From Nonlabens xiamenensis (GTDB lineage: Bacteria; Bacteroidota; Bacteroidia; Flavobacteriales; Flavobacteriaceae), in the NCBI RefSeq assembly GCF_003865345.1, contig NZ_RMVE01000002.1, forward strand, positions 310,001 to 374,000: DNA of 64,000 nucleotides, written 5' to 3'. A model generated the notes under the pieces. It was not told the origin of the DNA. It saw nothing but the letters and a program-made list of their open reading frames with translations, and ran no database searches. The position numbers and the translations under genes were made by a program. Shown here piece by piece: positions 30,165 to 55,825 of the stretch (the stretch's first letter is position 1; the number at the start of each line of letters is the position of its first letter).

Positions 30165-30575
30165 TCAGTCTGCAAACAATTCTTCACATCGGTTTAAGAA
30201 ATCGACCAATGGTTTTCTGGGGCGAAAATTTTTGGCATCTGTAAAAACAAGAGTCAGCTCACAAAGAGCGCATATTTCACCTTTTTTGTTGGTGATTTCA
30301 TAGTCAAAAACCACCCTAGTAGTAGGAATACTCTTTAGGGAGATTGCTACATGAATTTCATCATCAAATTTGATCGGTTTTTTGTACGTAATATCGATTT
30401 TATGAACGGGTAACAACACCCCATTTTCTTCCATTTTCTGGTAGGAAAAACCTAAAGTGTTTAACCATTCAAGTCTAGCTTGCTCCATGTATATCAGATA
30501 GTTAGAATGATGTATAATCCCCATCTGATCAGTTTCACAGTAACGAGGTAGGATTTTTACTACAATATTTTTCAT
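30165..30575 (-). CDS. Acyl-CoA thioesterase, 4HBT/YbgC type
   Basis: A hotdog-fold thioesterase of about 136 residues from the ATG at 30575; ATGs at 30587 and 30605 would add up to ten residues. The 4HBT signature is clear: RYCETDQMGIIHHSNYLIYM, where the Asp-Gln-x-Gly-Ile-Ile-His-His region carries the active-site residues, followed by EQARLEWLNTLGF. It hydrolyses acyl-CoA thioesters. The specificity is not inferable. Upstream lies the dnaA promoter region, with the two genes divergent. Confidence 0.88.
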   Translation of the reverse strand: MKNIVVKILPRYCETDQMGIIHHSNYLIYMEQARLEWLNTLGFSYQKMEENGVLLPVHKIDITYKKPIKFDDEIHVAISLKSIPTTRVVFDYEITNKKGEICALCELTLVFTDAKNFRPRKPLVDFLNRCEELFAD

Positions 30576-30641
30576 CAATTTTTTCATATATTTCTTGTGT
30601 ATCAAGAAAGTTAATTCAATGCGATTTTTTTTTAAGAAATC

Positions 30642-30680
30642 AAACCTTAAATAAATTTTTTTTAAGGTTTTTTATACACA
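30642..30680. promoter_or_regulatory. Candidate DnaA-binding or origin element upstream of dnaA
   Basis: The gap between dnaA and the thioesterase is AT-rich. It has a 9-bp inverted repeat AAACCTTAA (30642-30650) / TTAAGGTTT (30662-30670) with an AT-only 11-nt loop. Directly after it is TTATACACA (30672-30680), an exact match to the DnaA box TTATnCACA. A near box TGTGTATCA lies at 30597-30605. The hairpin followed by a T run could alternatively attenuate dnaA transcription. Confidence 0.4.
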
Positions 30681-30765
30681 TATTTGTCATCGATTTTAAC
30701 AGAGGATTTTCGATCTGATTTTTAGTTCTAAATCGCACAACCTAACATCAAAAAACAGCAAACTT

Positions 30766-32193
30766 ATGACACTGACGGCAGAATCGGTATGGGACAATTG
30801 TCTCTCTTTTATTAAAGACAATATTGCCCCTCAAGCTTATAAAACATGGTTTGCTCCTATAAAACCAGTAAAGCTAACTGATACTGCACTAAGTATTCAA
30901 GTCCCTAGTCGCTTTTTTTACGAGTGGTTAGAAGAACATTACATCAAGTTACTTAAAACTGCTTTAACGCGTGAGTTGGGTGAGGGAGCAAAATTGATCT
31001 ATGCGATCAAGATGGAAAACCCTGCGCGTGGTATGGAAGCTTTTACAGAAAAGATCCCTAGCAGCAACAGATCCATTAATAACTCACAATCGGTAGATGC
31101 TCCAGTGCGAAGCAAAAGCCCAGAGCTGAAGAACCCGTTTGTGATTCCTGGAATCAGAAATGTCAAGATTGAATCCCAACTCAACCCTTCCTATAATTTT
31201 GAAACTTTCTTGGAAGGTGATTCTAATAGGTTGGCGCGCAGTGCCGGAATGGCTGTTTCCAATAAACCTGGTGGTACCAGTTTTAATCCACTGCTCATTT
31301 TCGGTGGTGTAGGTCTGGGTAAAACCCACCTTGCCCATGCCATCGGTGTAGGTATTAAAGAAAATTATCCAGACAAAACCGTGCTGTACATCAGCGCTGA
31401 AAAGTTTACACAACAATACATCGAGTCGGTTCGCAAAAACAATAGAAATGACTTTATACATTTCTATCAGATCGTCGATGTATTAATAGTGGATGACATC
31501 CAATTCTTTGCCGGTAAGGCAAGTACCCAAGATGTTTTCTTCCATATCTTTAATCACTTGCATCAAAACGGTAAACAAGTTATTCTAACCAGTGACAAGA
31601 AACCGGTGGATATGCAGGATATCGAGCAGCGTTTGTTATCTCGTTTTAAATGGGGATTGAGTGCAGAACTCAATCACCCGGATTACGAGACCAGGGTATC
31701 CATCATCAAGAATAAACTATATAGAGACGGTGTTGAAATGGAAGAAGATGTGGTCAATTATCTGGCCGAGAACATCAAGACCAATATTCGCGAATTGGAA
31801 GGAGCAATTATCTCCTTGATCGCACACTCCTCTTTTAATAGAAAGGACATTACTATAGATCTGGCACGTAAGATTGTCGAGAACTACGTAAAGAATACAA
31901 AACGTGAGATTTCTATCGATCAAATCCAACAGGTAGTCAGTGACTATTTCTCTATGGATGTGGAAACCCTTCAATCCAAAACCAGAAAAAGACATATCGT
32001 ACAGGCAAGACAACTGGCCATGTATTTTTCCAAAAAATTGACCAAAGCCTCTTTGGCCAGTATAGGGACACAAATTGGTAAAAGGGATCATGCGACTGTA
32101 TTACACGCTTGTAAAACCGTAGACAACCTGGCTTCTACTGACAAGCAATTCAACAAATACGTAGAGGACCTACATAAAAAATTATCCAATTAA
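30766..32193 (+). CDS. dnaA: Chromosomal replication initiator protein DnaA
   Basis: DnaA melts the origin and loads helicase. The 475 residues show the usual order: domain I (VWDNCLSFIKDNIAPQAYKTW), a variable linker, AAA+ domain III with Walker A GGVGLGKTHLA (about 180), Walker B VLIVDDIQFFAGK and the sensor region, then domain IV with the DNA-binding signature RDHATVLHACKTV. It is followed directly (TAA then GTG) by the phosphatase gene. Its divergent upstream neighbour and box-like motif are described separately. Confidence 0.97.
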   Translation: MTLTAESVWDNCLSFIKDNIAPQAYKTWFAPIKPVKLTDTALSIQVPSRFFYEWLEEHYIKLLKTALTRELGEGAKLIYAIKMENPARGMEAFTEKIPSSNRSINNSQSVDAPVRSKSPELKNPFVIPGIRNVKIESQLNPSYNFETFLEGDSNRLARSAGMAVSNKPGGTSFNPLLIFGGVGLGKTHLAHAIGVGIKENYPDKTVLYISAEKFTQQYIESVRKNNRNDFIHFYQIVDVLIVDDIQFFAGKASTQDVFFHIFNHLHQNGKQVILTSDKKPVDMQDIEQRLLSRFKWGLSAELNHPDYETRVSIIKNKLYRDGVEMEEDVVNYLAENIKTNIRELEGAIISLIAHSSFNRKDITIDLARKIVENYVKNTKREISIDQIQQVVSDYFSMDVETLQSKTRKRHIVQARQLAMYFSKKLTKASLASIGTQIGKRDHATVLHACKTVDNLASTDKQFNKYVEDLHKKLSN

Positions 32194-54572: not shown

Positions 54573-55825
54573 TGCAGGAAGCCAGTTACGACCGAATTAT
54601 ATTACTTTACGAACAGGGAAGGTACAAACACGCAGAGGATTTGCTGAAAGTCGCTTTACAGGAGGATCCCAATGATGTTACTTCTCTGCACCTCATGGCA
54701 GCGGTCCACCTCGCTTTGGATCGACCAAAGGATGCCAAGCATTTTATTGATCTGGCGCTGGGTATTGCTCCTTATATGGATCAATTATATTCCACCAAAG
54801 CGCGAATCATGATTGATGTAGAACGATATGATGAGGCAGAAGGACTACTGAAGGAAGCTATCAACATCAATCCCTCAGAAGCCGGGCATTTTGCTCAATT
54901 GGCACAGATCAAATTGGCACGAAAAGAATATGCAGAAGCCGAAAACTTATCCGATAAAGCCTTGAGTTTAGAACCGGATAACTTATTGGCTTTAAACACC
55001 AAAAGCACAGCCCAACTCAAACAACACAAGAAAGCTGAATCTGAAGAAACCCTTAGAGGCGCACTGGGTGAAAATCCAGAAGATTCTTATACACATTCTA
55101 ATTACGGCTGGCATAAATTGGAGACTGGCCAACATAAACAGGCATTAGAACATTTCAAACAAGCCCTGAGATATGACCCCAATAATGGATATGCTCAAGC
55201 GGGAATGATGCAAGCCTTACAATCCAAATATTTCTTTTATCGCTGGTTCCTCAAATATCAGTTTTGGTTGGGCAATATGGGCGCTAAGTATCAATGGGGT
55301 TTTATCATTGGATTTTATTTGGGTATGCGCGTATTGGATTATCTCTCTGAAAGTATTCCCGCCCTTTCCCCTGTCCTGACTCCAATTGTAATCCTTCTCG
55401 CGATTGTCGCTTTAAGCACTTGGATCATCGGGCCGGTTTCCCAATTGCTATTTAGTTTTAATAAGTACGCCAAGTTTCTGCTTGAACCAAAAGAAAAACA
55501 GGCGGTTTGGCTTACTGGAATTTGTATCATTGTCTTCTTGGCAGGGGTTGGCGCCTATTTGCTGACAGATGATTTTAGATATGCCATGATCGCCGTAGCT
55601 GGTTTGATTTTGATGATCCCTTGGAGCATGTTCTATATGGAGACGAAACCTAGAAACCTCATGCCATTGGCCGCTGGAATTATGACCATCATTGCTGGAA
55701 TTGCAATTTATCTCAGCTTCAAGACGGGTGACATCGCCAATCCATTTGTCATCGGTTTTTTGGTCAGTTTTTTTGCTTTTCAATGGTTGGTCAATGCTGT
55801 AGTCATACGCAGAGATAATATTTAA
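54572..55825 (+). CDS. TPR membrane protein, partner of the AAA ATPase
   Basis: 417 residues. About residues 1-215 are TPR repeats (for example ALNTKSTAQLKQHKKAESEE and HYKQALEHFKQALRYDPNNG-like helices). The rest has about five to six transmembrane segments (from about 245; KYQWGFIIGFYLGMRVLDYL, LSPVLTPIVILLAIVALSTW). It starts inside the stop of the AAA gene (TAATG), a strong sign of joint function, with the TPRs of both proteins possibly contacting each other. Six bp on is the fructosamine-kinase-like gene. No known system was recognised. Confidence 0.82.
   Translation: MQEASYDRIILLYEQGRYKHAEDLLKVALQEDPNDVTSLHLMAAVHLALDRPKDAKHFIDLALGIAPYMDQLYSTKARIMIDVERYDEAEGLLKEAININPSEAGHFAQLAQIKLARKEYAEAENLSDKALSLEPDNLLALNTKSTAQLKQHKKAESEETLRGALGENPEDSYTHSNYGWHKLETGQHKQALEHFKQALRYDPNNGYAQAGMMQALQSKYFFYRWFLKYQFWLGNMGAKYQWGFIIGFYLGMRVLDYLSESIPALSPVLTPIVILLAIVALSTWIIGPVSQLLFSFNKYAKFLLEPKEKQAVWLTGICIIVFLAGVGAYLLTDDFRYAMIAVAGLILMIPWSMFYMETKPRNLMPLAAGIMTIIAGIAIYLSFKTGDIANPFVIGFLVSFFAFQWLVNAVVIRRDNI

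Follow-up and report, generated by a model that had tools for sequence, protein, structure and literature searches.

The window, meaning the whole 64-kb stretch of DNA analysed here, carries on its plus strand a dnaA gene encoding a protein of 475 aa (30766-32193; TIGR00362, 517.5 bits, E 3.2e-155), which is the sole copy in the genome. Among the matches listed, its closest named relatives are the DnaA proteins of Flavobacteria bacterium BBFL7 (94% identity) and of an uncultured Nonlabens (92%). A YbgC/FadM-type acyl-CoA thioesterase gene lies divergently upstream on the minus strand (30168-30605, start uncertain; TIGR00051 above cut-off). This neighbourhood is common: 79 of 80 loci have a relative of the thioesterase divergently before dnaA, and the remaining locus (L031) is too short to tell. 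The gap before dnaA is AT-rich, as the earlier note on this DNA had stated, with 79-80% AT over 100 bp. In steps of 50, only three 100-bp segments of the window reach at least 78% AT, namely those at 30551 (79%), 30601 (80%) and 36451 (78%). No Rfam RNA was found in the window at the gathering score.

The DnaA box consensus is TTATNCACA, in which position 5 is degenerate (N). A scan of the window located one exact box in the dnaA gap, TTATACACA at 30672-30680 on the plus strand, and the only other exact TTATNCACA of the 64 kb at 55087. The gap also contains a T8 tract at 30656-30663 and, at 30642-30670, a perfect inverted repeat with the 9-bp arms AAACCTTAA (30642-30650) and TTAAGGTTT (30662-30670) and an AT-only loop of 11 nt. 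Both the exact box and the repeat had been described before and are present as described. The near box placed at 30597 exists as a one-mismatch box, TGATACACA, but it occupies 30596-30604 on the minus strand.

By itself the DnaA box is weak evidence, and the inverted repeat is weaker still. In first-order Markov sequences modelling the 165-bp stretch, an exact box on either strand arose in 270 of 20000, and a perfect inverted repeat of at least 9 bp with a loop of 3-14 in 106 of 2000. Across the 3.68-Mb genome, TTATNCACA occurs 136 times compared with 143 for a reversed-pattern control, showing no enrichment. The earlier note had cautioned that one exact box is too little to call oriC. The box gains its significance from its conservation in relatives. 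The inverted repeat, which had been tied to the box, is kept in only two of 19 genomes tested, the window's own and G010; another congener, G018, carries a different inverted repeat, and the sequences of G004 and G011, outside this test, hold no perfect copy. We rejected it as a conserved structure and take it as probably due to chance, since it recurs in G010 only among 18 other congeners. The near box at 30596-30604 is probably a chance match as well; in an alignment of 12 sequences, none of the 11 relatives has a block matching it.

Conservation around the exact box was analysed in the best 80 of at least 586 confirmed dnaA matches, labelled mostly with Flavobacteriaceae genera and in a few cases only as Flavobacteriales or Bacteroidota. 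In 77 of these 80 relatives a core, TTNTNCACATATTTG, precedes the dnaA start by 79-110 nt. The 15-bp core including the box, TTRTNCACATATTTG, occurs without mismatch in 76 of the 80 and with at most one mismatch in 79; the inexact cores are those of L020, L021, L025 and L071, of which L071 has four mismatches and no recognisable core. Upstream of the core runs a stretch of T residues whose columns -16 to -11 are invariant in all 77 loci with the core. Within the genus, dnaA was matched in 22 of 23 congener genomes (no match in G005), and all 22 have the core, 20 of them exactly and G004 and G014 with TCTTTG, one base off. The dnaA match of G021 is split in two, which makes its core distance (201) not comparable.

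Among the 79 sequences, the core varies at position 3 (76 G, 2 A, 1 T), position 5 (77 T, 1 A, 1 G), position 6 (one T) and position 11 (one C). The congeners vary at positions 5 (A/T/C) and 11 (A/C) only, and within the box at position 5 only. The family-majority box, TTGTTCACA, differs from the classical box by a single base. The degenerate N of the DnaA box consensus falls on core position 5. Core position 11 corresponds to a free H position of TAHHTTTG, the published consensus of the Bacteroidetes -7 promoter element (PMC6847099). Variation in the core is limited, with one single-sequence exception, to positions tolerant in a DnaA box or in a -7 element.

The element is a character of the Flavobacteriaceae, although under a strict pattern it is not universal within the family: in an even sample of the order, 36 of 50 Flavobacteriaceae genomes had the T-run followed by the core, compared with none of 246 genomes of other families. 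It is also close to specific to dnaA. Apart from the copy at dnaA, 21 of 23 congeners had 0-2 matches to a looser 14-bp pattern and G008 and G020 had three, compared with 0-2 for its reversed control. The two extra matches in the window's genome lie inside open reading frames, one for a histidine kinase (by sequence) and one of 441 aa.

The second half of the core resembles a promoter element. With the DnaA box as positions 1-9, positions 8-15 form a putative -7 element, CATATTTG (30679-30686, plus strand), which is one base off TAnnTTTG and shares the CA at 30679-30680 with the box, a 2-bp overlap. It matches five of the six fixed -7 bases, and a C, the base required by the DnaA box, replaces the nearly invariant T at -12. 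The -7 box has been placed at -12 to -5 (PMC9723704), which puts the predicted transcription start of dnaA near 30691, the T8 tract at about -35 to -28 relative to that start, and the predicted 5' leader at 30691-30765. No TTTG was found at -33 in the putative dnaA promoter region, where the T-run stands in its place; the -33 motif is reported to be weak in F. johnsoniae as well (PMC6847099). In the stretch from 150 nt before the core to the ATG, only 11 of 77 loci have an exact TAnnTTTG, scattered and at no fixed place. CATATTTG occurs at +7 in all 77, by construction, the loci having been picked by a core that contains it. A second -7 candidate with one mismatch lies 12 bases upstream, at -5, in 34 of the 77.

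The predicted leader has features of its own. In 60 of 80 leaders (79 loci and the window) a CTAAC motif lies no more than 50 nt from the dnaA ATG, compared with 7.6 expected from a Markov model; in the window it is at 30742-30746 on the plus strand. A terminator-like hairpin followed by a T-run soon after the predicted start was observed in 21 of the same 80 leaders compared with 1.5 expected, the related sequences not being independent; L023, L026, L048, L053, L054, L056, L067, L068 and L070 are among them, and the window is without one. In part of the family this arrangement is a possible attenuator. On the other side of the core, at about -50 to -29, many of the loci L003-L075 show a conserved A-run and then a AAATTCAA-like sequence, which is absent in the Flavobacterium loci L076-L079. 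Perhaps this block serves as the -33 region in the promoter of the divergent thioesterase gene; the A-run/TTCAA block is inseparable from the thioesterase, since the latter neighbours dnaA in 79 of 80 loci.

The AT-rich gap, the exact box and the adjoining dnaA gene had also been read as a possible chromosomal origin. The site would then be all or part of oriC, the AT-rich tract would be the unwinding element, which the T-runs by the box resemble, and the box would load DnaA. The skew check suggested in the earlier note was carried out on the third-position skew of four-fold sites in sampled stretches, with a correction for gene direction, and it speaks against an origin at dnaA. In the window's genome the skew is -0.073 ± 0.024 to the left of dnaA and -0.050 ± 0.023 to the right, with no sign change, and 18 of 20 bins of the dnaA contig are negative. 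In the closed congener G010 (3,184,776 bp, dnaA at position 1), the skew of the sampled bins stays below zero from 2.66 Mb across dnaA up to 0.98 Mb, and between 0.98 and 2.64 Mb it is positive or close to zero. Over a contiguous 180 kb the cumulative skew of this genome has its minimum at 983 kb and is flat from about 970 kb, which places the switch about 0.98 Mb away from dnaA. As far as skew goes, this is the outcome that the earlier note had named as refuting an origin here. The bins flanking dnaA are negative on both sides in G169 and G335, from two other genera, weakly so to the left in G169 (-0.037 ± 0.042), and their other bins scatter; the skew of G007 was too noisy for origin placement. 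On contig C5 of the window's genome the skew is noisier, with six of nine bins negative before 480 kb, nine of 11 positive after it, and a minimum over a contiguous 160 kb at 483.5 kb.

A different site matches the switch in G010. In the 180 kb round this switch, AT content per 150-mer peaks at 979.9-980.2 kb (81-85%), and only at 979.1-980.3 kb do 700-bp segments contain three [TC]TNTNCACA sites, in a gap whose flanks match RNase R and RpiB. Elsewhere in the sampled G010 DNA, 26 of 1064 such segments hold at least two of these sites and four hold at least three. This candidate (about 979.1-980.3 kb on contig C1, L151/L165) is at or near the skew switch. Its counterpart in the window's genome lies on C5 at 477659-477815 (L270, L198), with a repeat at 477659-477675 and boxes from 477676, 477742 and 477807, ahead of rpiB at 478100. 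At least two box-like sites are found upstream of rpiB in 22 of 23 congeners including the window's genome (G007 has one), compared with two of seven genomes of other genera. A minus-strand box stands at the corresponding place in 20 of the 23, being missing in G017, G018 and G022, and in 12 of the 23 a GATGATGATGATGTAG repeat adjoins the box, which there reads TGTGAATAG, with further DnaA boxes. The variants present at this site (TTATACACA, TTATTCACA, TTATCCACA, TTGTACACA and TTGTTCACA) are of the same kind as those at dnaA. The gap between RNase R and rpiB is the probable oriC of the genus.

The orientation of 16S rRNA genes agrees with this placement. In six congeners, 14 of 14 genes point away from the rpiB site compared with five of 14 from dnaA, a count in which one gene is partial, the lengths of G006 and G018 are rounded and neighbouring operons are not independent. 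The search covered eight genomes, of which G007 gave none and the window's genome has its gene on an unplaceable contig. The distance between dnaA and rpiB is 0.85-1.51 Mb in six congeners, and in close relatives the origin appears to lie about a million bases from dnaA; C5 and C6 are separate contigs, and the distances come from the congeners, not from the window's own genome. In another Flavobacteriaceae genome oriC was placed at mnmG (PMC12843772), a gene about 16 kb from the rpiB site in G010. The candidate fits the box-plus-trinucleotide pattern outlined in PMC8287927 only loosely.

The site is recognised by the looser box count and less well by exact sequences. The [TC]TNTNCACA count singles out the rpiB gap, whereas pairs of exact TTATNCACA fail to do so, a G010 pair at 1,001,213 and 1,001,896 being closer together. 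Exact TTATCCACA was rarer than its reversed control in six congeners, and no clusters useful for finding an origin were evident among the matches listed. With one mismatch allowed, an 18-mer of the repeat region was matched in G137 and in the window's genome, and in no other of 199 family genomes. It is absent from G017, the second congener among those 199, which means that the exact block is not even genus-wide. A literature search found no paper joining Nonlabens with 'replication origin'.

The dnaA gap itself has one exact box and one with a single mismatch and no cluster, and its AT-richness alone is not specific for an origin. The skew, the 16S orientation and the box count led us to reject dnaA as the site of oriC, and the multi-box candidate beside rpiB at the G010 switch points the same way; it is very unlikely that replication starts at the DnaA box before dnaA. 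The closed assemblies G004, G010, G011, G169 and G335 start at or in dnaA, and the origin is about 1 Mb or more from the assembly start as judged by skew (G010, G169, G335) or by the rpiB-linked site (G004, G010, G011).

The other possibility raised in the earlier note, a DnaA autoregulatory site, finds support in the conservation of the element across the family and in its overlap with a -7-like promoter element. We consider it likely that 30656-30686 is the dnaA promoter with a single DnaA operator at which DnaA represses its own gene. The T-rich stretch and the off-consensus -7 element would recruit RNA polymerase to dnaA, and DnaA bound at 30672-30680 would exclude sigma and polymerase from the -7 element, with which the box shares its CA. 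High free DnaA would then lower dnaA transcription. Precedents for DnaA regulating its own gene come from E. coli, where it represses, from B. subtilis and from other bacteria (PMC8203912). The start region, DnaA binding and repression rather than activation are what we infer from the arrangement of the elements. Several points count against this reading, namely a -7 element without T at -12, the missing -33 TTTG, the one-mismatch -7 candidates upstream in 34 of 77 loci, the one-base departure of the family-majority box from the classical one and the locus without a core (L071), and the single box is fewer sites than at the E. coli dnaA promoter. A broader proposal, that the family has a fixed initiator-gated promoter in which box and -7 element are fused with shared bases, the -7 element losing its T to the C of the box, so that DnaA occupancy and dnaA transcription exclude each other at a single site, is put forward more tentatively, at somewhat less than even chances.

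The 15 nearly fixed bases could instead combine a conserved promoter element with the site of another regulator, the likeness to a DnaA box being secondary. Together with the T-run they exceed a box, and the majority sequence in the family departs from the classical one by a base, as noted above. This explanation seems rather unlikely to us, as the variation is almost confined to positions tolerant in a DnaA box or a -7 element, and the oriC candidate has the same box variants; the resemblance between the two sets supports DnaA as the ligand. DnaA might also bind and activate, or the site might mainly titrate DnaA. The protein can act in either direction (PMC8203912), and with C at -12 the promoter is predicted to be weak and might require assistance. 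The box, however, lies over the -7 element, where a bound protein is expected to block polymerase, and one site would presumably make a poor titrator, so that activation or titration is quite improbable compared with the repression proposed here.

Autoregulation by DnaA as such is already known. In the excerpt of PMC8203912 it is documented for other phyla, and Bacteroidota are not mentioned. No title or abstract opening searched described a Bacteroidetes-type -7 element with one DnaA box fused to it, though this does not prove such an arrangement to be unpublished. The 15-bp element, nearly fixed in close Flavobacteriaceae relatives, is a small and testable operator. If the initiator-gated promoter exists, this genus would read DnaA feedback locally, at a replication-timed position some 1 Mb away from oriC. 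The analysis also points to the probable oriC of the genus upstream of rpiB and advises caution with Flavobacteriaceae genomes rotated to dnaA, which do not start at the origin.

A close parallel is the E. coli dnaA promoter region (dnaAp1/dnaAp2), which likewise contains a DnaA box and for which negative feedback is expected (PMC8203912). At the present locus, in contrast, one box is fused to a Bacteroidetes -7-like element and a single promoter is proposed. With the Bacteroidetes sigma-A promoter (-33 TTTG, -7 TAnnTTTG) the element shares five of six -7 bases, and F. johnsoniae promoters have upstream AT-rich tracts, as does this dnaA (PMC6847099); it differs in having C rather than T at -12 and in missing the -33 TTTG. 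Bacterial origins with a basal unwinding system, in which boxes stand by DnaA-trios, resemble the dnaA gap in that AT-rich DNA adjoins a DnaA box. However, the gap has a single exact box and no skew switch, and it is the region upstream of rpiB that fits such an origin better.
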